Positions 12,699 to 57,789 of a stretch of DNA of 59,488 nucleotides are shown piece after piece. The stretch comes from Candidatus Fermentibacterota bacterium (GTDB lineage: Bacteria; Fermentibacterota; Fermentibacteria; Fermentibacterales; JCC-6), in assembly GCA_030592645.1 (NCBI GenBank), contig JAUVIR010000009.1, forward strand, positions 1 through 59,488, read 5' to 3'. The first letter of the stretch is position 1; each line of letters opens with the position of its first letter. The position numbers and the translations under genes are program-made. The notes beneath the pieces were generated by a model, which saw nothing but the letters and a program-made list of their open reading frames with translations, searched no databases and was not told where the DNA came from.

Positions 12699-12707
12699 TG
12701 GCCGCTC

Positions 12708-14489
12708 CTACCTTGTAACTACTGCGCCGAAGTTGCAGCTTGTTATACACTTGCCGCAATTAACGCAGGTTTCGATATTGATTACATGAACTTCTTTTAC
12801 TTTACCTGTAATAGCATCTACCGGACAGTTTTTCGCACAGAGAGTGCATCCAACACACTTATCCGGAATGATATAGAATTCTACAAGCGCCTGACATTCT
12901 CCGGCGGGGCATTTCTTGTCGAAAATATGAGCCTTGTATTCGTCAAGGTAATAGCGGATCGTAGTCTGTACAGGGTTAGGAGCTGTCTGTCCCAACCCGC
13001 ATAGACTGGCTTCCTTTATCTGGATAGACAGCTTCTCGAGTTTATCAATGTCCTCCGGCTCACCCTCTCCCCGGGTCAGTCTTTCCAGGATCTCAAGCAT
13101 TCTCAGGGTCCCTATTCTGCAGAAAGTGCATTTACCGCAGGATTCCTTCTGTGTGAAATCAAGGAAGAATCTTGCTATTTCAACCATGCATATATCCTCA
13201 TCCATAACAACCATACCGCCGGAGCCCATGATAGCGCCGGTGGCGGGGATGGATTCGAAATCTACTGGAGTATCCTTCATATGAGCGGGGATGCAGCCTC
13301 CAGAAGGGCCGCCCATCTGAACAGCCTTGAATTCCTTCCCTTCCTTTATGCCTCCTCCAATCTTGAAAACAAGATCCTCTATTGTTGTACCCATTGGAAC
13401 TTCAGCCAATCCTCCATGAACGACTTTCCCGGCCAGCGCGAATACCTTGGTTCCGGGGCTCTTTTCAGTTCCGAAGGCTGTATAGGCTTCAGCACCGTTG
13501 CATATTATCCAGGGTACGTTCGCAAAGGTTTCAACGTTGTTATTATTGGTAGGTTTCTGCCACAGACCCTTCTCCGCAGGAAATGGCGGTCGTATACGGG
13601 GCATCCCGCGTTCTCCTTCTATAGATGCGAACAATGCCGTTTCTTCACCGCAGACGAAAGCTCCCGCACCCTGCTTTATCTTCAGGTCGAAATCGAAACC
13701 GCTGCCGATGATATTCGTTCCAAGGTAACCCCGTTCTCTGGCTTCCAAAATGGCGATTTCCAGTCTGTGAATAGCCAGAGGATATTCGGCTCTGCAGTAG
13801 ATATATCCGAATGTTGCTCCTATAGCCTTTGCGCAGATTATCATCCCTTCAAGAATCGCGTGGGGATCGCCCTCAAGAACGGATCTGTCCATGAAGGCAC
13901 CGGGATCACCCTCATCAGCGTTGCAGACTACGTATTTCTGTTCTCCCTCATTCGCTGCAGCGAAGGACCACTTCAGACCTGTAGGGAATCCCGCCCCTCC
14001 GCGTCCGCGCAGCCCCGAGTCCTTGATGGTCTGGATTATCCTGGAAGGGGTCATTTCAGTAAGAGCTTTTCTTACTCCCTGATAACCTCCAGCGTTCTCG
14101 TAGTCTTCTATAGATTCGGGATTAATTGTACCGCAGTTGCGAAGTACGATCCTCTCCTGAAGATCAAGGAAATCAGACTCAGAACCACAGGTGCTCCCAT
14201 CAGGCCAGCAGGCATAAACAAGATTGTCATTATCAATTACTTCGTTACCAAGAACGTGCTTACTGAAGATCTCCTCTGCAGATTCGGGGGTTACTCCGCC
14301 GTAGAATACTCTACTGTCCCCATCTCTAACTTCAACCAGCGGCTCTCTGTAGCACATACCGATGCAGCCTGTTCTGGTGAGCATGCAAACATCAGGGTGA
14401 GCTGCAGCGAGTACCGAAAGTTTGTCGTAAGCAGCCTGGGCGCCGGCGGATAAACCGCAAGTACCCATTCCTACCACTATTTTCTTCAT
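12708..14489 (-). CDS. NuoF/HydB-like NADH-binding FMN subunit
   Basis: 593 aa. An N-terminal thioredoxin-like [2Fe-2S] domain (1-100; Cys in MGTCGLS and GCIGMC) is followed by the NuoF core: NADH/FMN site GLRGRGGAGFPTGLKW (about 160-175), NADEGDPGAFMDR, GEETALFASIEG, the N3-type [4Fe-4S] motif ESCGKCTFCRIG, and a C-terminal two-cluster ferredoxin (CVGCTLCAKNCP, CVNCGKCITSC). This is the HydB/NuoF arrangement of bifurcating complexes and serves as NADH entry and possible bifurcation site. It lies 9 bp upstream of the large subunit and downstream of the NuoE-like gene, so the three form an operon. Confidence 0.88.
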   Translation of the reverse strand: MKKIVVGMGTCGLSAGAQAAYDKLSVLAAAHPDVCMLTRTGCIGMCYREPLVEVRDGDSRVFYGGVTPESAEEIFSKHVLGNEVIDNDNLVYACWPDGSTCGSESDFLDLQERIVLRNCGTINPESIEDYENAGGYQGVRKALTEMTPSRIIQTIKDSGLRGRGGAGFPTGLKWSFAAANEGEQKYVVCNADEGDPGAFMDRSVLEGDPHAILEGMIICAKAIGATFGYIYCRAEYPLAIHRLEIAILEARERGYLGTNIIGSGFDFDLKIKQGAGAFVCGEETALFASIEGERGMPRIRPPFPAEKGLWQKPTNNNNVETFANVPWIICNGAEAYTAFGTEKSPGTKVFALAGKVVHGGLAEVPMGTTIEDLVFKIGGGIKEGKEFKAVQMGGPSGGCIPAHMKDTPVDFESIPATGAIMGSGGMVVMDEDICMVEIARFFLDFTQKESCGKCTFCRIGTLRMLEILERLTRGEGEPEDIDKLEKLSIQIKEASLCGLGQTAPNPVQTTIRYYLDEYKAHIFDKKCPAGECQALVEFYIIPDKCVGCTLCAKNCPVDAITGKVKEVHVINIETCVNCGKCITSCNFGAVVTR

Positions 14490-14539
14490 TCATTGCTCCA
14501 GACATTTTTCACAAAAGGACAGTTCGTATGATTATCAGA

Positions 14540-15055
14540 TCAGACACTCTCTACAGTTACTGCAATTGAATCGGTATTTGCTGAGGCCTTCTTTCTGTAA
14601 TTACGCAGGATCTTCCGAACAGAAGCGGGTGTAAGGCTGCCGTGTGTATCGTTGTTGACCATTATGACAGGTGCAAGTGAACAACACCCTATACATGCTA
14701 CCGTATTGAGAGTGAATAATCCATCTTCAGTAGTACCGTCCACTTCGATACCAAGCTCATCCTCGACCGTTTCCCTTATCAGTTTTGCCCCCGAAACATG
14801 GCAGGCTGTTCCCGCACATACCCGGATAACGTATTTACCCATAGGCTGCAGCCTGAACTGGCTGTAGAATGTAATGACTCCGTAAATATCAGATTCAGGT
14901 ATGGCTGTTACGCCAGCTATGTAGTTTATTGCACGCCTTGGAATGTACCCGAAATGTTCCTGGGCAGACTGAAGAAGGGGTATAAGTTCTCCGGGAGCTC
15001 CATCATATCTCCACAGTCTGTAGTTGAAATTCTCCTGTTTTGCAGCCGTTTTCAT
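14540..15055 (-). CDS. NuoE/HydC-like [2Fe-2S] subunit
   Basis: About 171 aa thioredoxin-like [2Fe-2S] protein. The cluster ligands are Cys in CAGTACHVSGA and CIGCCSLAP, and the helical N-terminal region (GELIPLLQSAQEHFGYIP) is typical of NuoE and HydC. It accepts electrons from the FMN subunit. I prefer ATG 15055 over GTG 15058. It is the first gene of the three-gene complex; the 100 bp upstream separate it from the receiver/RAM-like regulator. Confidence 0.88.
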   Translation of the reverse strand: MKTAAKQENFNYRLWRYDGAPGELIPLLQSAQEHFGYIPRRAINYIAGVTAIPESDIYGVITFYSQFRLQPMGKYVIRVCAGTACHVSGAKLIRETVEDELGIEVDGTTEDGLFTLNTVACIGCCSLAPVIMVNNDTHGSLTPASVRKILRNYRKKASANTDSIAVTVESV

Positions 15056-15155
15056 CACTCCCTTCGCGCACCTTTCTTTGTGTATCAGGTGCAGGATTCA
15101 GTGAAAACAACATGGCTCCACTGCTCCTGTGAAAGTAAGAAGTTCTTCGGTAATA

Positions 15156-16228: not shown

Positions 16229-17692
16229 TCAGTGAACTTCCGCTCTGCAAAGGTCCAGGGCACTGTCCAGATCAACCCAGCGTCCCGAACTTAGATACAG
16301 GTTCATCGCTCTGGCCGCCCTTCTTCCATGCCCCATGGCCAGTATAACGGTAGCTGCGCCCAGAACAATATCACCTCCGGCGAAAACACCGGGTACCGAA
16401 GTCTGGCCGGTTATCTCGTTAACAACGATACCACCCCATCTGGTCACTTCAAGATCAGGGAAACAGCTGGGTACAAGTGGGTTGGGGCTGTTTCCGATAG
16501 CAACGATCAGTGCATCGGTATTCTCGATGAATTCACTTCCTTCGATCGGGACCGGCCGTCTTCTACCGGATGAATCTGGTTCTCCAAGCTCCATCTTTAT
16601 TACCTCTGCACCCCTTATCCATCCCTTATCATCGCCTACCAGACGCACGGGATTCTGGAGAAGATGGAATTCCACTCCCTCTTCCTTCGCGTGATGTATC
16701 TCCTCCAGCCTTGCAGGCATCTGTTCCTCTGCCCTCCTGTAAACGATAAGCGATCTTTCTGCTCCCATTCGGAGAGCGGTTCGGGCACAGTCCATTGCAA
16801 CGTTTCCTCCGCCTACAGTAATCACTTTTTTCCCTTTAACAATGGGTGTGTCAGCCGCTGGGAAATCGTAGGCTTTCATCAGATTGGCCCGGGTGAGATA
16901 CTCGTTGGCCGACAGAACCCCGAGAAGGTTTTCTCCATCTACTCTCATAAATCTTGGAAGACCGGCTCCGGTTCCGACAAACACTGCATCAAAGTCATCA
17001 ACTATCTGCCTTACCGGTATGGTCTTCCCTATCACATAATCGTACCGGAATTCTACGCCAATCTTCTCCAGGTAGTCTACCTCATACTGCACTATTTTCT
17101 TCGGAAGCCTGAACTCTGGAATTCCGTAGACCAGAACTCCCCCGGCTCTGTGAAGCGCTTCGAAAACTATAACCTCATGACCGAACTTGATCAGATCTCC
17201 CGCCACTGTAAGGCCTGCAGGACCTGCACCGATAATCGCAACCCTTTTCCCCGAAGGTTTCATAGAGGGAGGCTGCTCGAACTCTCCCTGCTCCCTGTCC
17301 CAGTCGGCGATGAACCGTTCGAGTTTACCTATCATCACCGATTTGCAGGGATCCTTCCTGACCTTGCCGATGGTACAGAAAAGCTGACACTGCTCTTCCT
17401 GGGGACAAACCCTTCCACAAACGGCTGGAAGAAGGTTTCTCTCCTTCATCTTCCTTGCAGCACCCTTGAAGTCACCTTCTTCGATGAGCTTAATGAAACC
17501 GGGAATATCGATACCTACAGGACAACCTTCAATACAGAACGGTGTTTTACACTGAATACACCTTCTTGCCTCCAGCATAGCCATTTCGGGAGTGTATCCC
17601 AGCGGAACTTCCTCAAGATTATTTACGCGTTCCTTCGGATCCTGTTCAGGCATATCAACGGGCGGAATCTTCATCCTTTCCTTGGCGTTCAT
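16229..17692 (-). CDS. nfnB: NADH-dependent ferredoxin:NADP+ oxidoreductase large subunit NfnB (SudA/GltD-like)
   Basis: 487 aa. N-terminal iron-sulfur segment of the GltD type (ARRCIQCKTPFCIEGCPV, then CGRVCPQEEQC), FAD-binding GAGPAGLTVAGDL (about 155), NAD(P)-binding VGGGNVAMDCARTA (about 290) and the closing FAD motif GVFAGGDIVLG. Length and layout fit NfnB/SudA. Together with NfnA, encoded immediately upstream and overlapping by 4 bp, it forms the electron-bifurcating transhydrogenase that oxidises NADPH while reducing ferredoxin and NAD+, or the reverse. It can be mistaken for the glutamate synthase small subunit, but the NfnA partner settles the call. Confidence 0.9.
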   Translation of the reverse strand: MNAKERMKIPPVDMPEQDPKERVNNLEEVPLGYTPEMAMLEARRCIQCKTPFCIEGCPVGIDIPGFIKLIEEGDFKGAARKMKERNLLPAVCGRVCPQEEQCQLFCTIGKVRKDPCKSVMIGKLERFIADWDREQGEFEQPPSMKPSGKRVAIIGAGPAGLTVAGDLIKFGHEVIVFEALHRAGGVLVYGIPEFRLPKKIVQYEVDYLEKIGVEFRYDYVIGKTIPVRQIVDDFDAVFVGTGAGLPRFMRVDGENLLGVLSANEYLTRANLMKAYDFPAADTPIVKGKKVITVGGGNVAMDCARTALRMGAERSLIVYRRAEEQMPARLEEIHHAKEEGVEFHLLQNPVRLVGDDKGWIRGAEVIKMELGEPDSSGRRRPVPIEGSEFIENTDALIVAIGNSPNPLVPSCFPDLEVTRWGGIVVNEITGQTSVPGVFAGGDIVLGAATVILAMGHGRRAARAMNLYLSSGRWVDLDSALDLCRAEVH

Positions 17693-18555
17693 CGTGAACC
17701 CCCTTCGGACATGCTATCAAGTCTGCAGCCGGCGTGGGAGGAATAACGTTCAAGCGCGTTCTTCTCTTCCGACCTATATGTATCAAGGCGCGCCATAAGT
17801 TCATCAAAATCAACCTTGTGCCCATCGAACTCCGGTCCATCAATACAGGCAAACTTTATGGAACCACCAACGGTTACCCTGCAGCAACCACACATACCAG
17901 TTCCATCAACCATGATCGGGTTAAGGCTGACAATTGTTGGAATGCCAAGCTTCTCAGTCAGGATACAGACGAATTTCATCATGATCGGTGGTCCCATGGT
18001 GATACATTGCTCGAATTTCTCACCGTCATCTACAAGATTCCGGATAGCATCGGTCACAAGACCCTTCTGGCCTTCCGAACCGTCATCTGTAGTTATTATC
18101 AGTTCATCACTTGCTTCTCTCATTAAGTCGGTAAGTATGATCAGATTGGCAGATCTTGCTCCGAGGATACTGGTGACATGGTTACCAATATCTTTCATTG
18201 CTCTTGCAACAGGATACAGCGGGGCAATACCGATACCTCCCCCGACGCAAAGAACCCTGCCGACTTTCTCAATCTCCGTGGGTTCGCCCAGAGGGCCTGT
18301 AAGTGTCGGGATGGAATCACCCTTCCTCATCTGAGCCATCTGCAGGGTTGTTTTACCGACTGCCTGTATGATAAGGGTGATACTTCCCTCTTCGGTATCA
18401 ACATCGGCTATTGTTATTGGAATTCTCTCCCCGTTTTCATTGATCCGCACAATAACGAATTGACCGGGTTTTCTGTATCTGGCGATATCGGGTGCCCGGA
18501 ATCTGTACAGGTAAATATCCGGTCCAAGTTTTTCCTTGTGCAGAAGCTGGTACAT
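17689..18555 (-). CDS. nfnA: NADH-dependent ferredoxin:NADP+ oxidoreductase small subunit NfnA (SudB-like)
   Basis: 288 aa, ferredoxin-NADP+ reductase fold: FAD-binding beta-barrel (about 1-95), NAD(H)-binding GGGIGIAPLYPVARA (about 105-120), and a C-terminal [2Fe-2S] site whose Cys lie in MVDGTGMCGCCRV and KFACIDGPEFDGH. This matches NfnA/SudB/HydG (about 280 aa). The ATG follows a good Shine-Dalgarno (TGGAGG) at 18559-18565. A promoter is seen 100 bp upstream. Confidence 0.9.
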   Translation of the reverse strand: MYQLLHKEKLGPDIYLYRFRAPDIARYRKPGQFVIVRINENGERIPITIADVDTEEGSITLIIQAVGKTTLQMAQMRKGDSIPTLTGPLGEPTEIEKVGRVLCVGGGIGIAPLYPVARAMKDIGNHVTSILGARSANLIILTDLMREASDELIITTDDGSEGQKGLVTDAIRNLVDDGEKFEQCITMGPPIMMKFVCILTEKLGIPTIVSLNPIMVDGTGMCGCCRVTVGGSIKFACIDGPEFDGHKVDFDELMARLDTYRSEEKNALERYSSHAGCRLDSMSEGGSR

Positions 18556-33010: not shown

Positions 33011-33571
33011 TCATAATCCAGCATTTTCCAGAAGGAGGAGTACGGCTGCTAAAATCAGGCAGCCGGGTATCACTACCAGCCATGGATTGACATTCAGAAT
33101 TTCCGGGATTGTCTTCGCCCCGAAATCACCTTTCTGAAGAATGCCGTTTTTAAGCCCGGGGTAGATAGAAGCGTACAGACCGGACCCGATCAGAATACCC
33201 GCTACACCTCCGAGCAATGCGTCCAGAGAACCTGTCCCAACAGCACCCGATACGGTTCCGGGACAGTAACCGAGAGTCGCGAAACCGACACCGAAGATAA
33301 GGCCGCCAACCGCTGATGATCCGAGTGATCCGGGTTTGGGATGAAGTTTGACAAGACCGGCGCTTTTTAGAGCGTAAATGCCCAGAGAACCGGTGATAAC
33401 TGCTGACAGCATAACCTTCACAACCGTGAAATCCTTCAGAAGAAGCTGACCGATAATGACATCGTAATCGGTGACTCCTCCCTTCTGCAGCAGAAAGCCG
33501 AATGCTACCCCGCAGAGCAGAGCAATAGCGAACTGCAGACCTCTTTTCGCATGCAGTTCATCGAGGGTCAT
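33011..33571 (-). CDS. YeeE/YedE-type sulfur transporter, C-terminal half (DUF6691)
   Basis: 186 aa membrane protein with four to five hydrophobic segments and the family motif GFATLGYCPGTVSGAVGTGS, whose Cys is thought to relay sulfur anions in the YeeE/TsuA family. It overlaps the preceding YeeE/YedE half by 4 bp, so the two are co-translated and probably form one channel. It belongs to the three-gene sulfur operon with the MBL/rhodanese protein. Confidence 0.88.
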   Translation of the reverse strand: MTLDELHAKRGLQFAIALLCGVAFGFLLQKGGVTDYDVIIGQLLLKDFTVVKVMLSAVITGSLGIYALKSAGLVKLHPKPGSLGSSAVGGLIFGVGFATLGYCPGTVSGAVGTGSLDALLGGVAGILIGSGLYASIYPGLKNGILQKGDFGAKTIPEILNVNPWLVVIPGCLILAAVLLLLENAGL

Positions 33572-34101
33572 GATGCACCTCCTGCAAACACTTCAAATAT
33601 CAGCAGTGCTGTGACAATACCGCCTGCAAAGAAACATATTGCTGCTATCCAGCTGCTGAGGGTCCATTGAAGTGTTCCACTTATTCCGTGGCCGCTTGTA
33701 CATCCTCCCGCCCATCTGGAACCGAAACCCATTACAATACCTCCTGCAAGAGCAACCAGGAGTCTGAGGATCGGTGTGTCTCCGAAGTAAGCAGTCCAGA
33801 GCGAATGTTCAATGCTTATTCTGAAGGAACCTGAGAGGATGCTGGATATGAACGCCCCGGCAAACACGCCCAGAACAAGTATCCATTCCCAGTCAATTTC
33901 AGGAACGAACTCCATATAGTAGGGTTTTTCCTTTACCTTATCACCTCTGAACAGCTTCTCGATCATTCCGCTCGTTCTGGCAAAAGCAGTAGAACAGCCG
34001 ATGGCTTTGTTTGAAAGGAGAAAAGTCACCCAGCTGAGAACACCAATACCGGCCCCAACCAGATATGGAGACCATCTTCCCGCTTCAAGCCAGTTCATCA
34101 A
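33568..34101 (-). CDS. YeeE/YedE-type sulfur transporter, N-terminal half
   Basis: 177 aa with about five membrane segments. Conserved Cys motifs AIGCSTAFAR and RWAGGCTSGHGISG match the sulfur-transport (DUF395) repeat. It overlaps the MBL/rhodanese gene upstream and the second half-transporter downstream by 4 bp each. The split arrangement is common in anaerobes and contrasts with the fused protein at 41466-42656. Confidence 0.88.
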   Translation of the reverse strand: MMNWLEAGRWSPYLVGAGIGVLSWVTFLLSNKAIGCSTAFARTSGMIEKLFRGDKVKEKPYYMEFVPEIDWEWILVLGVFAGAFISSILSGSFRISIEHSLWTAYFGDTPILRLLVALAGGIVMGFGSRWAGGCTSGHGISGTLQWTLSSWIAAICFFAGGIVTALLIFEVFAGGAS

Positions 34102-35558
34102 TGCTTATCCACTCCGGTTTTCGCCGTGACCCGGTCGTGTAAATTGCCCGTGAGCAGTCGCGGACCATGAGGTATGGAACACATCAGGCATGCAGGGGCA
34201 AGAGCTGCCGAATTGAACCCTTTCATACCTCCGGAAATGTTCTGAAGCTTTCTGAATCCGTTAGTCAGGAGGATACTCCCGGCCAGAGTTGATCTGTATC
34301 CGGTGCTGCATACAAGAAGGGTCTCCGAATCCTGGTCCAGCTCCCGAAAGCGGGTCCTCAGATCCGGTGCAGGGATGTTTACAGCACCATCGATGTGTGA
34401 ATTGTCATACTCAGCGGAAGATCGCACATCCAGTATCAGACCGTTACTGCATGACCTGATCACAAGGTCGGCCTCAAGTACCGACAATTGAGGTAAATGG
34501 GCAGCCGGAAGACCTGCAAGAGACCACGCAAACATACCTCCGTCCAGGTATCCCTTCACCCTGTCAAGTCCTACTCTTCTGAGCCATAAGGTTGTGTCCG
34601 ATACCTCAGAGAGGCTCGAAGCAACGAGGTAGATATCAGCATCAGGGGGGAGAACCCAACCGGCAAAGACGGGGATATTCCCCTCGAAGTCAATACTTAC
34701 AGCATTCGGTATATGCTGTCCGCCGAAGGCATCGTACCTCCGTACATCCAATACAATTGAATTAGGGCCACCGATGGCCTTTCTGAATTCTTCCGGCTTC
34801 ATCGGTTCAGGCTCCCCGAGGGAGGAAATTGTTGCAGATCCTGCTCTGTTGAACGCACTGCATCTGGAAAAATGATCAGGTGCCGGAGGCATTCCGGTGG
34901 TAAGGGAATGAATAAAAGCATCCCTGTCTTCGATCTGCAGGGCGGCATTGTACTTGCGTTCGTAGCCTATTGTACTGCGCCATTTGGAGCCCATAGCCCT
35001 GCCGCACAGGGATCCCGCGCCGTGCGCAGGATATACTTCGCAGAAATCCGGCAGTTCCATGAGTTTTCTCAAGCTGTCATATAAACGGGATGCAAGCTCC
35101 TGCGCCATGTCCGGGAACAGGTCCGGCCGACCCACATCCCCGACAAATAATGTATCTCCGCAGAATACACCGGCTGGATCCGGCCCTCTGCCTGTATCAG
35201 ATACTATGTAACTTACATGTTCCGGTGTATGCCCCGGAGTCTCTATTACATCTATTTTCATCTCCTCAAGCAGGAAACTGTCACCCTCGGAAACGGGTAA
35301 ATGGTCGAATGCACAGCATGCCAATGCCGGCACAACCACCGAAGCCCCTGTCAAGGCTGCCAGATCCATGTGACCAGACACGAAATCCGCATGCAGATGG
35401 GTCAGGAGAACATGAGTTATTTTCAGATCATGGTCCGCAGCTGCCCTGATGTAACCGCCGACATCCCTTGAGGGATCGATAACAGCGCAGGTTCTGTTTC
35501 CCGCCAGCATATATGAACTATGGGCGAGTTTAGGCATGAAAAAATGAACCAGCAGCAT
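34098..35558 (-). CDS. Metallo-beta-lactamase/double-rhodanese fusion (persulfide dioxygenase-like)
   Basis: 486 aa. The MBL domain (1-240) has the metal motif THLHADFVSGH and later TPGHTPEH, CGDTLFVGDVGRPDL and YPAHGAGS, as in ETHE1/BlhA-type persulfide enzymes. Two rhodanese domains follow. The first (about 270-370) lacks a catalytic Cys, its loop being LVASSLSE. The second (about 385-470) has CSTGYRS and should be active. It probably handles glutathione-like persulfide or sulfane sulfur delivered by the coupled YeeE/YedE transporter. ATG 35558 follows GGAG at good spacing, whereas an upstream start would add 25 unrelated residues. O2-using dioxygenase activity seems odd in an anaerobe, so hydrolase or transferase use is possible. 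Confidence 0.82.
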   Translation of the reverse strand: MLLVHFFMPKLAHSSYMLAGNRTCAVIDPSRDVGGYIRAAADHDLKITHVLLTHLHADFVSGHMDLAALTGASVVVPALACCAFDHLPVSEGDSFLLEEMKIDVIETPGHTPEHVSYIVSDTGRGPDPAGVFCGDTLFVGDVGRPDLFPDMAQELASRLYDSLRKLMELPDFCEVYPAHGAGSLCGRAMGSKWRSTIGYERKYNAALQIEDRDAFIHSLTTGMPPAPDHFSRCSAFNRAGSATISSLGEPEPMKPEEFRKAIGGPNSIVLDVRRYDAFGGQHIPNAVSIDFEGNIPVFAGWVLPPDADIYLVASSLSEVSDTTLWLRRVGLDRVKGYLDGGMFAWSLAGLPAAHLPQLSVLEADLVIRSCSNGLILDVRSSAEYDNSHIDGAVNIPAPDLRTRFRELDQDSETLLVCSTGYRSTLAGSILLTNGFRKLQNISGGMKGFNSAALAPACLMCSIPHGPRLLTGNLHDRVTAKTGVDKH

Positions 35559-35865
35559 TTTCAGTCTCCGTTCCTTCAGAACAGTAAGTGAATGCAGCAG
35601 TAACACTGTAACCAGTGACTGGAAAATACCCAAGAAACGGTGTGTCCGTCAAATCTACCCTGCATCATCCAGTCAACACTTTGACGCATGCCGGTCATCT
35701 GAGGCAGGGTATCCGCTTTTCGGAAATCAGCAGATTTATTGATGCGGAACAAATTGTGTTGAAGTAGTGTTTGTAACGTGTTATGATATTTACGGAATTT
35801 ACTACCTCATCAGCTGACACTCCGCATGTGTCAGTGATCACGAATGAACATGGAAGGCAGTGTAA
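35559..35865 (+). promoter_or_regulatory. Divergent intergenic region with M6 protease promoter and leader hairpin
   Basis: 307 bp. A plus-strand promoter is clear: TTGAAG (35759-35764), 17 bp, TATGAT (35782-35787). The leader holds a perfect inverted repeat CTGACAC-N7-GTGTCAG (35814-35834), an operator or RNA hairpin. No gene is seen in the region. Confidence 0.6.
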
Positions 35866-41465: not shown

Positions 41466-42656
41466 CTAATACGCTGAAAACTTTCCTGTCCGCTCATTCC
41501 ATTTCACGAAGAGATACCAGAGAAGCATGATAGCCAGGAATACACCAACTGCTGGTCCGTACCCGATTTTTTCAGGCAGGAAAAACATCTGCTTCATGCT
41601 GTCAGGCAGCGCATCGAAAAATGCAGGCTTGATGAACTTCGCTGTAAAGGGCATTGCAACCATCATACCGATTATTGAAGCCCAGAGTTTGATATGTCCT
41701 TCGCCGGCGCGCCACAGTGAGCCAACGGTACATCCACCGGCAATGGTCATTCCAAATCCGAAGATCGTTCCTCCGATGATGGCAGGGACCCAGAAATGGG
41801 GCCAGACCCAGATCATTTCGCCCCTGACACCCATGAACTTGAGGACGACAAACCCGAACATCGAGACCAGGATACCCGCCATTACAGCGAGTGCCGGTTT
41901 AGAGCTGCCGGACATGAACGGCTCACGGAGTGCCCTGACAACACAGAAGCGTGAACGCTGGCAGACCAGGCCTAAGTAAAGGCCAATTGGTGCGAACCAT
42001 GCGAGTACGCTGCTGGTGCCTGTGTACCTGAAGGCTACGATCATACCTATGATTACTACAACAAATCCGAGGATCGGCTGCCAGGATCCCTTGCCTTTTC
42101 CGGCGTCAAGAATCGAATATGTTTTTCCGCTGCTTAATTTCGGGAATTTATTCACTTCGAAGAGCAGGTACTTAACAGCAAGCCATGTACCGACTACGAG
42201 TCCTCCTGTGAAAACGACTGCGCCCAGTGAAAGCGCGGGCCAACCGCTGAAAAAACCGCCGATCGTGCAGGATACACCTACAACGGCTCCAAGTCCCATC
42301 AGGAGGCCTCCGATAAGCCCTTTGAAGAGTTCGCCAATAGGAGGAAACCTGAGAGCGAACTGCTTGGAGAAAAGAGCTCCAGCGAACGCGCCCAGTAATA
42401 GCATTATGCACAGAACCGAGTATGGGAATAGATTAACCGCTCCCATGTTGGCAAAGTCCCCGCCCATAAGGTTGAACAGGTTATCTCCCCAGTTCTTGAC
42501 TCCCCCGGAGGCGCCCCATGGCTTAAGAACTATAAAAAGGCAGATGTTACCCACACCGAGCAGGATTCCACCCACCCACATAGGCCATGATTTGGAGAAA
42601 AACACATCGTACAGTTCACGAAGGCTTCCTTTATTCTTTGCACCGGATTCACTCAT
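41466..42656 (-). CDS. Fused YeeE/YedE family thiosulfate/sulfur transporter (TsuA-like)
   Basis: 396 aa with about nine to ten membrane segments in two repeats. Conserved Cys are in VGVSCTIGGFF, VCQRSRFCVVRAL and IAGGCTVGSLW, matching the sulfur-relay Cys of TsuA/YeeE, which imports thiosulfate. TusA-family genes are the usual partners, and one lies 82 bp upstream here. ATG 42656 has a Shine-Dalgarno AAGGAGATAACG. Confidence 0.9.
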   Translation of the reverse strand: MSESGAKNKGSLRELYDVFFSKSWPMWVGGILLGVGNICLFIVLKPWGASGGVKNWGDNLFNLMGGDFANMGAVNLFPYSVLCIMLLLGAFAGALFSKQFALRFPPIGELFKGLIGGLLMGLGAVVGVSCTIGGFFSGWPALSLGAVVFTGGLVVGTWLAVKYLLFEVNKFPKLSSGKTYSILDAGKGKGSWQPILGFVVVIIGMIVAFRYTGTSSVLAWFAPIGLYLGLVCQRSRFCVVRALREPFMSGSSKPALAVMAGILVSMFGFVVLKFMGVRGEMIWVWPHFWVPAIIGGTIFGFGMTIAGGCTVGSLWRAGEGHIKLWASIIGMMVAMPFTAKFIKPAFFDALPDSMKQMFFLPEKIGYGPAVGVFLAIMLLWYLFVKWNERTGKFSAY

Positions 42657-51704: not shown

Positions 51705-51747
51705 TTGACAGCAGCATAAAATTGGAATACGATTCCGTATTCGAATA
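51705..51747 (+). promoter_or_regulatory. Promoter and palindromic operator of the arsR-dsrE-tusA-hdr operon
   Basis: TTGACA (51705-51710), 17 bp, TACGAT (51728-51733). The -10 is covered by the perfect inverted repeat GAATACG-ATTC-CGTATTC (51725-51742), overlapped by a second palindrome TATTCGAATA (51738-51747). Such A+T-rich inverted repeats over the -10 are typical ArsR-family operators, so the operon's own regulator probably represses here. Confidence 0.7.
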
Positions 51748-51839
51748 TTAGAATATCCTTTCACAGAAATGGTAAGAATATTTCAGATAGCAGACCAGAT
51801 CAGATCGATTTTGAAGCGATTACTGAAGTACTCAAAGCA

Positions 51840-52148
51840 ATGGCTCATCCTGTAAGGCTTATGATCATGGATGAGCTGCTGCGGAATCCCCGATGCGTTT
51901 CAGCCATGCATGAGATACTCGATGTCAGGCAGCCAAACATATCCCAGCACCTTACAATTCTGAAGAACTCCGGAATAGTTGCTTCGGACCGGGACGGCTC
52001 CTACAGATGCTACTACCTCCGAAAGCCCGGTCTTGTCAAAGCTGTACTGAAATCAATGAACAGGGAATGGCCGGAAGCGGACATTGAAGATGTTAGAGGA
52101 AATTTCAAACGGGCGCTGAAAATACGCCTGAATAAACTCGGGATCTAA
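51840..52148 (+). CDS. ArsR-family regulator of the sulfur/Hdr operon
   Basis: 102 aa from ATG 51840. Winged-helix ArsR fold: MAHPVRLMIMDELL, recognition helix RQPNISQHLTILKNSGIV, wing DGSYRCYYLRKPG. Two Cys (in NPRCVSA and YRCYYL) could form a sulfide- or persulfide-responsive pair like BigR/SqrR (inference). The ATG gives no helix 1 and has no Shine-Dalgarno. The frame stays open upstream with good ArsR-like sequence (QIDFEAITEVLKA) but no ATG, GTG or TTG, so a rarer start such as ATT 51780 is likely. It is first of the operon, 20 bp before dsrE. Confidence 0.85.
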   Translation: MAHPVRLMIMDELLRNPRCVSAMHEILDVRQPNISQHLTILKNSGIVASDRDGSYRCYYLRKPGLVKAVLKSMNREWPEADIEDVRGNFKRALKIRLNKLGI

Positions 52149-52168
52149 CCCCGGAAGGAGACTCTTAA

Positions 52169-52522
52169 ATGGGTAAAGTAGCGTTCATATGTAATGGATC
52201 CGAAAAGTCCAATCTGTACCCTGCATTCGTTCTGGCTTCCTCAGCTATAGCATCAGGCGATGATGTTATCATTTTCTTCACACCTGCGGCGGTTCCGGCT
52301 CTTAAACCGGGCTTCCTGGAAAGCATGACCGGAAAAGGTATGCCCGATATGAAGGATCTTCTTGAAGGAGTAATGGTTCTCGGCGGCCGTATGATGCTGT
52401 GCGAACTGGGCCTTGAGGCACATGACGTTACAGCTTCCGACCTTAGGGATGATATCACTATAGGCGGCGCGACCACCTTCATGGCCGAAATTCAAGACGC
52501 GAAAACAACATTCTCATTCTAA
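52169..52522 (+). CDS. DsrE/DsrF-like sulfur-carrier family protein
   Basis: 117 aa with the DsrE-like fold: VAFICNGSEKSNLYPAFVLASSA, DDVIIFFTPAAVPAL, GGRMMLCELGLEAHDV. Single mid-protein Cys (in MLCELGL) at the site that carries persulfide in DsrE/DsrE2 proteins. It partners TusA in sulfur relays. Shine-Dalgarno AAGGAGAC. Second gene of the operon. Confidence 0.87.
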   Translation: MGKVAFICNGSEKSNLYPAFVLASSAIASGDDVIIFFTPAAVPALKPGFLESMTGKGMPDMKDLLEGVMVLGGRMMLCELGLEAHDVTASDLRDDITIGGATTFMAEIQDAKTTFSF

Positions 52523-52540
52523 CACGGAAGGAAACTAATA

Positions 52541-52765
52541 ATGGCTTCTATTGTACTTGACGCACTTGGACTGAAATGCCCCCAGCCGATACTTAAAATA
52601 GCTATAAAGGCAAAAGAACTGCAGCCGGGCGACATGCTTGAAGTTCTCGCGGACTGCCCCTCTTTCCCGGTTGATATTAAAGCATGGTGCGAACGAACAG
52701 GGAAAACCCTTCTGTTCTGCGCCACCGAGGGAGACGGAAAGCACAAAGCACAGGTTCAGTTCTAA
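52541..52765 (+). CDS. tusA: TusA-family sulfurtransferase, operon copy
   Basis: 74 aa. Active-site Cys in GLKCPQPILKI (CPxP), with further Cys in DCPSFP, AWCERTG and FCATEG. It is the second TusA in the window and distinct from the one at 42739-42969. Lying between DsrE and MvhD/HdrA genes it should pass sulfane sulfur to or from the Hdr-like complex (inference). Shine-Dalgarno GGAAGGAAAC. Confidence 0.92.
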   Translation: MASIVLDALGLKCPQPILKIAIKAKELQPGDMLEVLADCPSFPVDIKAWCERTGKTLLFCATEGDGKHKAQVQF

Positions 52766-52784
52766 TAGCCGGACAGTTGCAATA

Positions 52785-53207
52785 ATGGAAGATTTCGAAC
52801 CGCGTATCATAGGGTTTCTCTGTAACTGGTGCTCTTATGCGGGAGCAGATCTTGCCGGTACCAGCAGGCTGAAAATGCCCCCGAACCTGGTTCCGATAAA
52901 GGTCATGTGTTCCAGCAGGGTTGATCCTGAAATGGTGACGGACGCCTTCCTCCGGGGTGCTGACGGTGTCCTTATCGCCGGGTGTCATCCGGGTGACTGC
53001 CATTATGACAAGGGAAACTACTATGCAAGGCGCAGATTCGCGGTACTGAAAAAGGTAGTCGAAAGCCTGGGTCTGGAGGCGGACAGGCTCCGGCTCTCCT
53101 GGATTTCCGCTTCTGAAGGAGCCCGCTTTCAGCAGGTCGTGGAGGAGTTCACCGAGAAGATACGAAAAATGGGTCCGAATCCCACCGGGAAGGAAACCCT
53201 TCTGTAG
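52785..53207 (+). CDS. MvhD-like [2Fe-2S] electron-transfer subunit
   Basis: 140 aa from ATG 52785. Family motifs: FLCNWCSYAGADLAG (Cys13 and Cys16), VMCSSRVDPEMV, GVLIAGCHPGDCHY and YYARRR. In methanogens MvhD links hydrogenase to HdrA, and in QmoB it is fused behind HdrA. No hydrogenase genes are nearby, so here it must pass electrons between HdrA and another partner, perhaps the FdhB-like proteins. The stop overlaps the next GTG start by one base. Confidence 0.9.
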   Translation: MEDFEPRIIGFLCNWCSYAGADLAGTSRLKMPPNLVPIKVMCSSRVDPEMVTDAFLRGADGVLIAGCHPGDCHYDKGNYYARRRFAVLKKVVESLGLEADRLRLSWISASEGARFQQVVEEFTEKIRKMGPNPTGKETLL

Positions 53208-54484
53208 TGGATGATGTTCTCGTTGTAGGGGCAGGGGTCGCTGGAATGAAGGCCTCTTTACTGCTCGCCTCGGCCCGAAGGCAAGTTCATCTGGTCGAGA
53301 ACTCCTCCGTAATCGGCGGCCGGCTCATCCGCTGTGAGGATATATTCCCGGCGATGGAATGCGCTACCTGCATGGTCTCCCCCATGCAGCAGGAAGTTCT
53401 CCGGAACGATCTCATCAATGTGATCACACTGGGGGAAATACTCTCAATTGAAGGTTCAATCGGAGATTTCAGGGTAAGGATACGTAAGCAGGCATCCTGC
53501 GTGGACCCTGTGGCATGCATCGGCTGCGCCGAATGCTGGAATGCCTGCCCGGTCGAGATCAGCAATGACTTCGAAGAGAACCTCTCGAGCAGAAAGGCTA
53601 TCTCAGTCCCCTGTGCCGGAGCCCTGCCGAATGTCCCCTGGATAGACAGAGAGCACTGTCTCAGATGGAACGGCGATGAAAACTGCAGCCTGTGTGCCGA
53701 CGCATGTGTTTTCGAAGCGGTAGATTATTCAGAGGCAGACTCGGAGTTCGATATAACCGTATCCGACATAATACTTTCGACAGGTTACCAGCCTGCTCCG
53801 GGAGAGGTATTTGAGAAATTCCAGTTGGGGATATCTCCGGGAGTTTTTACCGCATCGGAATTCGAGCGGTACTACTCCTCGAACGGTCCCACATCAGGAG
53901 AACTTGTAACGAAAGATGGCTTGAAACCTGCATCTGCAGCGATAATAGTTCATGCAGACGGCACAGGAAGCCACTCAAGGATCAATACAATGTACTCTCT
54001 GAAGTTCCTTCATTACCTTCACGAAAAACTCCCGGATATCCGACCTGTGGTGTTTCTGGATGCTTCATATTCACCGGTTACACTCGAAGACAGGAACCAT
54101 AGTAAATGGCTTGCCGCTGAAGCTGATGTGATCCTGTACACACAGATGCCCCGGGTGCAAACTGCAGAAGACAGTAAAACCCTGAGTATTACATGCAGCA
54201 CGGCCGAAGGTACTTTCCAGGCGGAAGCAGACCTGCTGCTGCTCGGTACATCAATGCTGCCTTCATCGGGAACTTCAAAGTTCATCAAGCTGCTGGACCT
54301 GCAGTGCAGTGATGAAGGATTCATCGGTAAACCTGAACCAGCGTTTTCATCAGTAACGACCTCTGTTCCCGGTATTTTTGCTGCGGGATGCGCAGGCGGT
54401 CCGCTGGACATAACCTCTTCTGTCATAGAAGCCGCTGCCGCCGCAGGCAGGGTACTTGCAGATGCGAACAGGGGGGGGAAATGA
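53207..54484 (+). CDS. HdrA/QmoA-like flavoprotein, first copy
   Basis: 425 aa from GTG 53207. FAD-binding GAGVAGMKASLLL (about 7-20), VENSSVIGGRL, a conserved Cys pair MECATCMVSP near 52, a [4Fe-4S] motif CIGCAECWNACPV (about 104-116), a second Cys set (CLRWNGDENCSLCADAC, about 150-167), and the closing FAD motif GIFAAGCAGGPLDI. Length and layout are near QmoA rather than the longer methanogen HdrA. It overlaps the second HdrA gene by 4 bp (ATGA). Confidence 0.88.
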   Translation: MDDVLVVGAGVAGMKASLLLASARRQVHLVENSSVIGGRLIRCEDIFPAMECATCMVSPMQQEVLRNDLINVITLGEILSIEGSIGDFRVRIRKQASCVDPVACIGCAECWNACPVEISNDFEENLSSRKAISVPCAGALPNVPWIDREHCLRWNGDENCSLCADACVFEAVDYSEADSEFDITVSDIILSTGYQPAPGEVFEKFQLGISPGVFTASEFERYYSSNGPTSGELVTKDGLKPASAAIIVHADGTGSHSRINTMYSLKFLHYLHEKLPDIRPVVFLDASYSPVTLEDRNHSKWLAAEADVILYTQMPRVQTAEDSKTLSITCSTAEGTFQAEADLLLLGTSMLPSSGTSKFIKLLDLQCSDEGFIGKPEPAFSSVTTSVPGIFAAGCAGGPLDITSSVIEAAAAAGRVLADANRGGK

Positions 54485-55683
54485 GAACGGGTGTTTTTGT
54501 CTGCAGCTGCGGTCCCAACATCGGTGACAGAATTGATATTGAAAAAATAGCTGATGAAGTTTCCGGTATAGAGGGTGTAGTACTCGCGGAAACTCACGGC
54601 CTGCTCTGCTCCCCTGACGGAAAGAAATACCTTGAAGAGAGAATAAAGGAAAACGACCTGGAACGGGTTGTTATTGCCGCATGTTCTCCACGGGAACATG
54701 AGATCACCTTCATGAAGGTATGCGAAACGGCCGGGCTCAACCCCTTCATGATGCAGATGGCGAATATCCGTGAACAGGTCGCATGGGTAACACCGGACAG
54801 AGAATCTGCAACGCGCAAGGCACTCAAACTTGTGCGTGGCGCCATAAACAGAACCATCCGTCACAAACCCCTGGAAAAAACAAGCATCGTCTGCAACCCC
54901 GAAATTGTAATAGTAGGAGGGGGAATTGCTGGTATGTCCGCTGCCCTTCTTCTCGCGGATGCGGACAGGAAAATAACGATCATTGAGAAAAACTCCTCTC
55001 TGGGCGGCCACCCTGGGAACAAAGATCTTGCTGCACATTTTTGCGAAGCGGTGAAAGAACGGAAAGAGATAACTGTCATAACCGGATGTGAACCGGAGGA
55101 GATCGTCGGTTTCTTCGGAAATTTCATCATTAAACCCGGTGAAGATATAGAGGAAATACGTGCCGGATCTATAGTTCTCGCGACCGGATGCATGGTGGAT
55201 GATAACGGCAGGGACACTGCTCCGGATGGATTTCGGAAAATGACGGAAATGCTCAGGATCACAACTGACGAAAATGGTTTCCCGGGCCGCGAACATGCTT
55301 CACTTGCCCCCGTATCTACTCCTATCGACGGTGTATATGTAACCGGTTGCGCAGGAGGACTCTGCAGCCCCGGCGAGGCGGTATCTCGATCCGAGGCGGT
55401 TGCAGGTACTATCCTCTCCTCCCTGATACCGGGCAGGGAAGTCGAAACCGAACCGAGAACATCAGTTATTTCAGAAACACTCTGCCGCGGATGTAAAACC
55501 TGTCTGGAAGTCTGCGGTTACGGCGCCATATCCTTCGATGATGAAAGGCTTGTCTGCACTGTAAACAGCGTCCTGTGTAAAGGATGCGGTAACTGCGCGG
55601 CGGCATGCCCCTCCGGAGCCATTAAATCCCAGCATTTCACTCCGGATCAGATCCGCTATCAGATGGCGGGGCTTCTGAGATGA
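54481..55683 (+). CDS. HdrA/QmoB-like flavoprotein, second copy
   Basis: 400 aa from ATG 54481. HdrA N-terminal domain (FVCSCGPNIGDRIDIEKI, then ETHGLLCSPDGKKYLEERI and ACSPREHEITF), FAD site VGGGIAGMSAALLL (about 140-153) with GGHPGN, YVTGCAGGLCSPGEAV, and two C-terminal [4Fe-4S] motifs (CRGCKTCLEVC and CKGCGNCAAACP). The FAD-binding core is shorter than in methanogen HdrA. With the separate MvhD it equals the two halves of QmoB. It overlaps both neighbours by 4 bp. Confidence 0.88.
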   Translation: MRTGVFVCSCGPNIGDRIDIEKIADEVSGIEGVVLAETHGLLCSPDGKKYLEERIKENDLERVVIAACSPREHEITFMKVCETAGLNPFMMQMANIREQVAWVTPDRESATRKALKLVRGAINRTIRHKPLEKTSIVCNPEIVIVGGGIAGMSAALLLADADRKITIIEKNSSLGGHPGNKDLAAHFCEAVKERKEITVITGCEPEEIVGFFGNFIIKPGEDIEEIRAGSIVLATGCMVDDNGRDTAPDGFRKMTEMLRITTDENGFPGREHASLAPVSTPIDGVYVTGCAGGLCSPGEAVSRSEAVAGTILSSLIPGREVETEPRTSVISETLCRGCKTCLEVCGYGAISFDDERLVCTVNSVLCKGCGNCAAACPSGAIKSQHFTPDQIRYQMAGLLR

Positions 55684-56711
55684 ATTCAATAATCGTAGAT
55701 TTTCTGGAAAAAGCACTGGTCAGTGATTACGTCAGCTCCGTGCTGGTTCCATCAGGAGGACCTGATAATACTTTTCCGTGGACTCTTATAAGCGATGTTT
55801 CCGCTCTCGCTATGGCGGAGCCCGTTCCGCCTGTCATGTACGTTCAGGGAGCTAAAGCACTGGCTTCCTTCACTCAATCCATGACGGAGGGAAAGCTCCT
55901 TGCTGTTATGCGTCCATGTGAGGCCAGAGCCGCAGTGGAGCTGTCAAAGCTTGAGCAGATAGATCTCGACAATATCATCCTTCTCACAATGGACTGCCCT
56001 GGCGCTGTGCCACTTAAGGAGTACCGCAGGGATGCCGGCATTCAGCCGGACATCAGCATACCCGAGACCATTCGTCCTTTGTGCAGGCAGTGTACCGAAT
56101 TCACCTCTGCCGGTGATCTATGCCTTGCCATGCATGGAGGTCTTCGTGAGGTACTTCCCCTTACACCCGCGGGACAGGAACTCCTTGATTCTCTCGGGAT
56201 GAAAGCAGAACCGGACACGTCAGCATGGATAGAATGGGCAAGCAGCCTCAAGGCAGAGAGGGAAGCAGTCAGTACCGAGAACAGAAAGAGTTTGAAGAAG
56301 GCCTACAGCGGCCTCGAGGGTCTGGTCGAGGTGTTCAGCGGATGCATCTCCTGCCGCAGCTGCCGAACGGTATGTCCGATCTGTTACTGCAGACTCTGCT
56401 TCATCGATATGAAAGACAGACGTTGCCCTGCTTCTGCGCACCTCGAAAACTCCCGCAGCAGCGGAGCTGCAAGGGTTATGTCCGGCACACTTCTATTTCA
56501 TATCGGTAGAATGGCGCACATGAGCCTTTCATGCGTATCGTGCGGAATGTGCGAGGATGCCTGCCCGTCGGATATCCCTGTAGGCAGGCTCGTAAGCATG
56601 GTTTCCGCCGGTACCACAGCTGTCTTTAACTACAGCGCCGGAAGTGATCCTGAAGATCCGCTGCCCCTGAATACGTTCCGCCTGGAGGAACTTCATGAAT
56701 ACGAAGACTAG
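55680..56711 (+). CDS. FrhB/FdhB-like iron-sulfur flavoprotein, first copy
   Basis: 343 aa. The FrhB/FdhB family block VMRPCEARAAVELSKLEQID (about 78-97) is followed by DCPGAVP and a Cys-rich C terminus: GCISCRSCRTVCPICYCRLC (about 221-240) and CVSCGMCEDACPSDIP (about 283-298), that is, two [4Fe-4S] clusters plus extra Cys. Relatives bind flavin and pass electrons from F420, formate or NAD(P)H modules. In this operon it occupies the place of HdrB/HdrC or QmoC. It overlaps the second HdrA gene by 4 bp and the next paralog by 17 bp. Confidence 0.82.
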   Translation: MNSIIVDFLEKALVSDYVSSVLVPSGGPDNTFPWTLISDVSALAMAEPVPPVMYVQGAKALASFTQSMTEGKLLAVMRPCEARAAVELSKLEQIDLDNIILLTMDCPGAVPLKEYRRDAGIQPDISIPETIRPLCRQCTEFTSAGDLCLAMHGGLREVLPLTPAGQELLDSLGMKAEPDTSAWIEWASSLKAEREAVSTENRKSLKKAYSGLEGLVEVFSGCISCRSCRTVCPICYCRLCFIDMKDRRCPASAHLENSRSSGAARVMSGTLLFHIGRMAHMSLSCVSCGMCEDACPSDIPVGRLVSMVSAGTTAVFNYSAGSDPEDPLPLNTFRLEELHEYED

Positions 56712-57789
56712 CGTACTGGTTTCCGAATCATCAATCGGGGATACTCTGAGAGATCTGCTGGGTAAACTTCTTGAGAACGGGGAGATCGATTCAGTTTTCG
56801 CTCTCCGTGAAACCAGGCAGAAGGGCAGGTACTGCTATTCCCTCATAACAGATCCCACCCTTATCAGGGAAGCTCTGCCTTTCCACCCGGTTATGCCTGT
56901 TCAGGGAGCCAGGGCTCTTTCGGAAATGACAATCACCGAACCTTTCGGGCGCCCTGTTGCCGCACTTCTCCGGCCCTGCGAGATCCGGGCTTTCGTAGAG
57001 AATGTTAAACAGTCTCAGGGGAGCCTGGAGAATATCTTCATCATCAGCTGCACATGTCCCGGTGTGATACCGGCATCGAAATTACTGGGGGAAGACCGGG
57101 AGGACGTTCTCGCAAACCATGGCGGAAACATCAGAAACGCATGCAGGACATGCACCGGATTCATTCCCGGGCCGCAGGCCGATATGACTGTTCTTTTAGC
57201 TTCGGATGAGCCGCACGACGGTACTGTTATTTATCTGAATACCGATAGGGCTGTTGAAATCGCCGGGAAACTCGATTCCCTGTCGCGCGAAACAGGCAAG
57301 CCTGCCGCTGAACTCACATCCGGTATTTCAGAAGCAAGAGAAAAATCTCTGAAGGATCTTATGAGGGATATTCCGGCACCTGCTGATGGACTGCAATCAC
57401 TGGTATCGCTTTTCGCAGCCTGCATCGGATGCCGGGGATGCCGGGAAGCATGTCCTTTATGCAGCTGCGTTCTCTGCGATTACGAAACTGCACGCACCCT
57501 GCATTCACCTGAACTCGTCCGGTCGGAAGCTAAGCGAAAAGGATCAGTTAGAGTACCGGCAGGAACCCTCCAGTTCCAGCTCGGAAGGCTCATGCATATC
57601 TCACCTTCATGTACGGCGTGCGGTCAGTGCAGCGATGTATGCCCCGTGGATATTCCTGTCTCCGATATATTTATCAGGGCGGCTAATCTGGTTCAGGAAT
57701 CTCTTGACTACGCCCCGGGCAGAGATACCGATGATACCCCTCCCATGGCAACCTACCTGGAGAAGGAACTGCTGGACATAACCGACTGA
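56695..57789 (+). CDS. FrhB/FdhB-like iron-sulfur flavoprotein, second copy
   Basis: 364 aa paralog of the preceding protein: LLRPCEIRAFVENVKQ, SCTCPGVIP, CRTCTGF, GCRGCREACPLCSCVLC and CTACGQCSDVCPVDIPVSD. The same order and spacing of Cys motifs show tandem duplication, but sequence identity outside the motifs is modest, so it is an old duplication. The two probably form a heterodimer delivering or accepting electrons at the HdrA pair (inference). Last gene of the operon; 1 bp separates it from the convergent small gene. Confidence 0.82.
   Translation: MNTKTSVLVSESSIGDTLRDLLGKLLENGEIDSVFALRETRQKGRYCYSLITDPTLIREALPFHPVMPVQGARALSEMTITEPFGRPVAALLRPCEIRAFVENVKQSQGSLENIFIISCTCPGVIPASKLLGEDREDVLANHGGNIRNACRTCTGFIPGPQADMTVLLASDEPHDGTVIYLNTDRAVEIAGKLDSLSRETGKPAAELTSGISEAREKSLKDLMRDIPAPADGLQSLVSLFAACIGCRGCREACPLCSCVLCDYETARTLHSPELVRSEAKRKGSVRVPAGTLQFQLGRLMHISPSCTACGQCSDVCPVDIPVSDIFIRAANLVQESLDYAPGRDTDDTPPMATYLEKELLDITD

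Follow-up and report, generated by a model that had tools for sequence, protein, structure and literature searches.

A compact DsrE/TusA-linked operon for a candidate Hdr-derived complex without the HdrBC arm in Aegiribacteria

What could an Hdr-type flavoprotein do in an operon that carries sulfur carriers in place of the disulfide-reducing HdrBC subunits? The question is raised by the eight-gene operon arsR-dsrE-tusA-mvhD-hdrAa-hdrAb-fdhB-fdhB, located at positions 51840-57789 of contig JAUVIR010000009.1 from a Candidatus Fermentibacterota bacterium (assembly GCA_030592645.1; 2.58 Mb, 93% complete), with all genes on the + strand. The whole contig, 59,488 nucleotides long and numbered C31 among the contigs of this genome, was analysed and is called the window here. 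An initial annotation proposed a soluble flavin complex that couples persulfide bound to TusA and DsrE to ferredoxin, NAD(P)H or F420, in either the reductive or the oxidative direction. We give about even chances to the following reading: HdrAa and HdrAb, together with MvhD and two FdhB-like proteins, would form a soluble Hdr-derived complex whose substrate is the sulfane sulfur of DsrE and TusA, likely reduced to sulfide. From the earlier proposal, the sulfur link and the absence of HdrB, HdrC and QmoC are retained, whereas F420 as a carrier is not and the oxidative direction has become weak.

All eight open reading frames are real, and their family matches agree with the families first assigned. 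The operon begins with arsR, encoding an ArsR/SmtB-type regulator (51840-52148; 102 aa from the first ATG; HTH_5, PF01022, E 1e-12). It is followed by dsrE for a sulfur-carrier protein (52169-52522; 117 aa; DrsE_2, PF13686, E 2e-11, and DsrE, PF02635, E 2e-8), the sulfurtransferase gene tusA (52541-52765; 74 aa; PF01206, E 4e-18), and mvhD for a [2Fe-2S] connector of the MvhD/FlpD type (52785-53207; 140 aa; PF02662, E 3e-55). The remaining genes are hdrAa (53207-54484; 425 aa; HdrA 5odc, E 4e-59), hdrAb (54481-55683; 400 aa; HdrA models 1-229 plus the C-terminus), and two fdhB-like genes, fB1 (55680-56711; 343 aa; FdhB 9t1s_M, E 6e-27) and fB2 (56695-57789; 364 aa; FdhB/ElpB, E 2e-21 to 1e-18). 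The compact spacing claimed earlier (gaps of 20 bp or less, overlaps of 1-17 bp) was measured as gaps of 18-20 bp and overlaps of 1, 4, 4 and 17 bp. A search for this gene order, proposed as a check on the annotation, recovered it completely in nine other genomes of uncultured Aegiribacteria, giving ten complete copies; elsewhere the order is cut only by contig ends.

Both hdrA genes encode HdrA-like proteins as annotated, but neither is full length, and the start of hdrAb is corrected to 54481. HdrAa corresponds to positions 141-557 of the HdrA model, that is, to the flavin adenine dinucleotide (FAD) domain with its inserted two-cluster ferredoxin; the N- and C-terminal domains are missing. 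HdrAb consists of the N-terminal iron-sulfur (FeS) domain, a shortened FAD domain from which the insert and the middle are deleted, and a C-terminal two-cluster ferredoxin. One ligand of the N-terminal cluster in known HdrA, Cys197, is donated by the partner HdrA; in the tandem HdrA pairs of anaerobic methanotrophic archaea (ANME), Cys197 and the N-terminal domain are divided between two proteins (PMC9012536). The same division is found here: HdrAa keeps the Cys197 equivalent (C55) and has no N-terminal domain, and HdrAb has an N-terminal domain with invariant C8, C10, C43 and C68 and no Cys197. Because this complementarity matches the tandem-HdrA rule, an obligate HdrAa.HdrAb heterodimer is predicted, and the residue table bears out the Qmo-like or tandem-HdrA-like pairing suggested at first. 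The structure model of HdrAb is mediocre (predicted local distance difference test, pLDDT, 74; predicted template modelling score, pTM, 0.51) and is used as support only.

What has become of the arm that leads to HdrBC? None of the ten complete operon copies contains HdrB, HdrC or QmoC, as the annotation had it for the window. In characterized complexes the high-potential electron reaches HdrBC by way of HA4, the cluster of the TrxR domain (PMC12350162, PMC9012536), and K409 and E356 mark the bifurcating FAD (PMC12054007). These residues were tabulated for 12 compact-operon, five paralogous and two canonical sequences, aligned to HdrA of M. thermolithotrophicus (5odc numbering). All 12 compact HdrAa have lost C386, C399, C403 and C404, the presumed HA4 ligands, with a conserved His replacing C386, and all retain C194 and C197, the eight inserted-ferredoxin cysteines, and both E356 and K409 (E220 and K266 in HdrAa). 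The five paralogous and both canonical HdrA keep the four cysteines and every other listed residue. In HdrAb, the region of HA4, E356 and K409 is wholly deleted. Set against the hallmarks of flavin-based electron bifurcation by HdrABC, the operon has E356/K409 and lacks an HdrB with CCG cysteines, HdrC and the HA4 ligands. Judged from the sequences, the HdrBC arm is gone both as subunits and as the cofactor HA4, which strengthens the earlier observation of missing subunits. The annotation had named hdrB or hdrC adjacent in relatives as evidence against it; neither occurs at the compact operon, whereas paralogous clusters carry an HdrC-like gene, or HdrB plus HdrC. The only HdrB gene of the genome lies far away on contig C19, in a canonical HdrABC-MvhADG locus whose HdrA bears HA4. 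That locus reads HdrC-HdrB-HdrA-MvhD, then fumarate-reductase-like TfrB/TfrA and MvhG-MvhA, and possibly represents a hydrogenase-driven thiol:fumarate-type system.

The two FdhB-like subunits are the candidate electron inputs. A joint profile of fB1 and fB2 matches FdhB/ElpB over near-full length (E 4e-41 to 2e-54; PDB 7bkb, 8rvu, 9t1s), and the AlphaFold2 (AF2) model of fB2 (pLDDT 80, pTM 0.84) has as its closest folds FdhB 7bkb_E (template modelling score, TM, 0.74) and ElpB 8rvu_E (TM 0.73). FdhB-type input subunits act through MvhD in the solved complexes 7bkb and 8rvu (PMC12350162). fB1 and fB2 fall below the cut-off of the Pfam FrhB/FdhB models; their Fe-S cysteines are kept, and the KGECGGAVTAL and SLHC segments of FdhB are not conserved.

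Is the presence of DsrE and TusA more than an accident of gene order? Cys78 of DsrE is invariant among the aligned orthologues, and the Cys13-Pro-x-Pro (CPxP) motif of TusA is conserved. A profile of the HdrAb form detects 14 genomes plus fragments, all of one genus, among the 42 genomes of the phylum, and a scan of genome contigs gave matches only in Aegiribacteria/Fermentibacteria, plus one weak match. Window-type DsrE is shared by this genus and 4 of the 13 sister-genus genomes, and those four are the only ones with HdrA homologues (4/4 with HdrA genes versus 0/9 without; chance probability 1/715, uncorrected for shared ancestry). In each of the four, dsrE lies beside Hdr genes on the same contig. 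A tusA-yedE-dsrE-tusA set runs toward the Hdr cluster in the three fully read genomes; in the fourth, dsrE and yedE occupy the same place. The same DsrE/TusA are independently associated with a second, related Hdr/FdhB cluster, and the sulfur link of the initial annotation is upheld.

YedE-type transporters are encoded in the window itself, at distances of about 9 and 18 kb. The nearer yedE-like sulfur transporter gene (41466-42656, - strand; PF04143, E 2e-45), roughly 9 kb outside the operon, is 67-71% identical to yedE of the sister-genus sets, and its product is possibly the sulfur-uptake partner of the operon. At 33011-35633 (-), a split YeeE/YedE pair and a metallo-beta-lactamase/rhodanese protein make up a second sulfur-uptake set.

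The related cluster also sheds light on the origin of the operon. Contig C3 (1-14000) of the source genome carries a related mvhD-hdrA-hdrA-fdhB-fdhB module with an ArsR-like gene in front; behind it come mvhD, a 1022-aa HdrA::HdrA fusion, another mvhD, and a third FdhB-like gene. In the sister genus the large cluster continues with HydB-like, HydG/AsrB-like, HdrC-like, FrhB, NuoE, NuoF and NuoG-N/HdrA genes. This Hdr/FdhB/NuoEF/HydG supercluster of about 16 genes includes a Pfam-positive FrhB, though the phylum is without the F420-synthesis gene cofD. In trees, the compact-operon sequences of hdrAa, hdrAb, fB1 and fB2 group into one clade per gene (ultrafast bootstrap, UFBoot, 97-100), and each clade pairs with the matching gene in module 1 of the large cluster (support for the joined groups 100, 100, 90 and 72, respectively); the mvhD tree did not resolve. 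Since these four genes each pair with their module-1 counterpart, the module behaves as one unit, and the phylogeny of the compact operon is best read as that of a divergent sister copy of module 1 with dsrE and tusA built in.

Based on these parts, the following path can be proposed. Sulfane sulfur would enter through YedE and then pass to TusA and DsrE, and a donor other than F420 would reduce the FdhB-like pair. From there electrons would flow to the [2Fe-2S] cluster of MvhD and on to the FAD of HdrAa, as in known complexes. The low-potential electron would travel through the C-terminal ferredoxin of HdrAb and the inserted ferredoxin of HdrAa to free ferredoxin. The high-potential electron, with HA4 gone, could move straight from FAD to a persulfide bound at the face where HdrC would otherwise sit. 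Such a bifurcating, flavin-based persulfide reductase, which would hand the FAD electron straight to DsrE/TusA sulfane sulfur without HdrBC and HA4, is a tentative proposal that we hold at well under even chances. In the path as drawn, sulfane sulfur is more likely the acceptor than the donor because no known oxidising partner was found.

Several points weigh against this picture. The redox potentials are about -270 mV for S0/H2S, -320 mV for NADH, and about -450 to -500 mV for ferredoxin; by simple energetics, NADH-driven bifurcation onto sulfur would be uphill, and a lower-potential donor would be needed. As the energetics disfavour NADH as the sole bifurcating donor, a plain non-bifurcating persulfide reductase is a possible form of the same complex. 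The canonical flavin/F420 segments of FdhB are unconserved in fB1 and fB2 and give no pointer to the electron donor. No persulfide-reduction site was identified, and the contact of TusA/DsrE with HdrA is a proposal. C386, C399, C403 and C404 are taken as HA4 ligands by elimination, not from coordinates. The compact operon is found in one genus only (the searches covered one phylum), and in G025, a genome of another genus, the large cluster is present while the examined contigs contain no DsrE of this type. Within the genus, the dsrE copy of G016, one of the nine relatives, is interrupted by an in-frame TAA (G016:C44:10284-10634), the remaining operon being open. The case as a whole is computational.

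Could the complex serve electron transfer rather than sulfur chemistry? It is conceivable, though unlikely, that it is an Hdr-derived electron hub, for example from ferredoxin to NAD(P)H or another carrier, while DsrE, TusA and ArsR sense or buffer sulfur or act in Fe-S assembly. The lack of an identified substrate site fits a hub, as does the fact that all parts except DsrE and TusA are electron-transfer modules; the paralogous large cluster, moreover, has several nicotinamide-type inputs (NuoEF, HydG/AsrB). A hub, however, would leave the missing high-potential branch without an evident electron sink, and the same DsrE/TusA have been linked twice, separately, to such clusters.

An improbable alternative is that sulfane sulfur is oxidised or disproportionated, as in sHdr or Qmo/reverse-Dsr. 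TusA and DsrE feed both sHdr and rDsr, the amounts of YTD proteins increase during disproportionation (PMC9751629), and DsrEFH type II has been proposed to serve oxidation (PMC13293266). The genomes do not provide the expected partners, however. A member of the siroheme sulfite/nitrite reductase family (PF01077, NIR_SIR) was found in none of the 42 genomes, 11 of 14 controls being positive; TusA/DsrE therefore cannot feed Dsr, and a DsrAB partner in either direction was rejected. Because of this absence and of the single distant HdrB, the oxidative reading is weak; moreover, HA4 is lost and no DsrF/DsrH gene lies beside dsrE. CHP1/CHP2 (DsrF/DsrH) were likewise not seen beside the yedE-tusA-dsrE sets, where no CHP1/CHP2 model was searched. 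Sat, which is present and might be taken as a sign of oxidation, occurs in 36 of the 42 genomes irrespective of the operon and is uninformative.

Still less probable is a role in selenium supply or tRNA thiolation, in which YedE, TusA and DsrE would deliver Se or S for selenocysteine or modified tRNA. The transporter does show a YedE/FdhT-like match, and SelD is encoded, itself with one in-frame TGA (G000:C25:33494-34420, and likewise in most genomes of the phylum), so that selenocysteine is probably used in the phylum. SelD, however, passes the cut-off in 35 of 42 genomes, most of the DsrE-free sister-genus genomes among them, and is general rather than tied to DsrE; the operon reading frames contain no in-frame TGA. 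A heterodisulfide-type reductase completed in trans is highly improbable: HdrB and HdrC exist on C19, but in their own operon with an HA4-bearing HdrA, and this option was rejected because the absence of hdrB/hdrC is matched by loss of the serving cofactor in 12/12 orthologues. Least probable of all is an F420H2-dependent complex like Elp-Hdr, to whose ElpB/FdhB subunits fB1 and fB2 are homologous, since cofD is found in 0 of 42 genomes, which makes F420 a very unlikely carrier, and the N-terminal FdhB segments are lost.

How might the operon be controlled? A promoter, TTGACA - 17 nt - TACGAT (51705-51733, + strand; 10/12 consensus matches), precedes it, and an operator-like palindrome, TATTCGAATATTAGAATA (51738-51755), directly 3' of the -10 element, is a candidate ArsR site. 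The promoter pattern alone is unremarkable (5 sites found versus 5.3 expected). TTGACA is invariant in 11/11 orthologous upstream regions, and the same or a nearly identical AT-rich palindrome, largely conserved around the -10, precedes several orthologous operons. Because of this conservation, it is plausible that one ArsR-controlled promoter drives the operon, in agreement with the one promoter first annotated, and the ArsR protein probably represses the operon. In relatives arsR starts 21-27 codons farther upstream, where the window (51780-51840) has ATT and no ATG, GTG or TTG; the true start is perhaps at about 51780, without a usual start codon in the assembly. The SqrR/BigR/SoxR sulfane-sulfur sensors are marked by two conserved cysteines at the SoxR C50/C116 sites; this ArsR has two cysteines, one in the wing and none in the C-terminal helix region, and reaches 48 of 155 bits with the BigR model, far below the cut-off.

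Further electron-transfer loci were seen in the window and the phylum. At 9033-15058 (-) lie NuoE/NuoF-like genes and a 1221-aa NuoG-N/Fer4_20-pyridine-nucleotide/molybdopterin oxidoreductase protein, possibly a bifurcating formate dehydrogenase, and at 16229-18555 (-) an NfnB/NfnA or SudA/SudB-like pair, a further candidate NAD(P)H-linked sulfur reductase. In this DsrAB-free phylum, seven of eight DsrC genes share a contig with a long HdrA::HdrA-type gene; DsrC lies about 4-6 kb from that gene in HdrA::HdrA-MvhD-FdhB-HydB-HydG-HdrC-HdrB clusters (G003:C39, G005:C55, G009:C49, G039:C17, G021:C33), which resemble Flox-Hdr with DsrC as the disulfide partner.

If the proposal is true, a bifurcating Hdr core can work without its HdrBC disulfide-reducing arm when tied to protein-bound sulfur, and lineages without Dsr have a route of sulfur reduction. 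If the bifurcating form is true, a fermenting bacterium without Dsr or F420 would gain reduced ferredoxin from sulfur reduction. The prediction of a heterodimeric HdrA without HA4 is testable structurally, and the operon can serve as a marker for a candidate phylum that is little known and comes from digesters and anoxic, often sulfidic sites.

How does the operon compare with known systems? It shares with the Elp-Hdr, Fdh-Hdr and Mvh-Hdr complexes of methanogens (8rvu, 7bkb, 5odc) the HdrA fold, E356/K409, the MvhD connector and FdhB/ElpB-like inputs, but has no HdrB, HdrC, FdhA/ElpA, hydrogenase, HA4 or F420, and its HdrA is split into two unequal halves served by two FdhB-like subunits. The tandem or fused HdrA of ANME (HdrA5/6, 12/13, 3/4; 'type II') and Desulfobacterium HdrL likewise combine a complementary HdrA pair with MvhD and FdhB-like genes (PMC9012536, PMC12054007). 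Those clusters, however, often keep HdrBC or HdrD and are without dsrE/tusA, and no description of HA4 loss with the complementary-HdrA pattern was found in the literature consulted. QmoABC also pairs two HdrA-like flavoproteins with an MvhD-type domain, whereas the operon has no QmoC-like membrane subunit and no adjacent aprAB (aprAB and genome-wide qmoC were not searched). Like sHdr, the operon has TusA and DsrE carriers, an ArsR regulator in first place and an HdrA homologue; in contrast to sHdr, sHdrB1/B2, sHdrC1/C2 and LbpA are missing from it (LbpA was not searched genome-wide), the genome has a single HdrB, and HdrAa matches sHdrA (6tjr) at E 2e-11 versus HdrA (5odc) at E 4e-59. YedE, TusA and DsrE recall the YTD or yeeE-tusA-dsrEFH type II cluster, and in the sister genus their genes stand in one set beside the large Hdr cluster, but the operon proteins are coupled to Hdr-type genes, with no Dsr pathway. 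The parts are thus already known, as tandem HdrA heterodimers, HdrA-MvhD-FdhB assemblies and TusA/DsrE/YedE sets; what is new, and unmatched in the open-access literature searched, is their combination, the selective removal of HA4 while everything else stays in place, and their occurrence in a phylum free of Dsr and F420.

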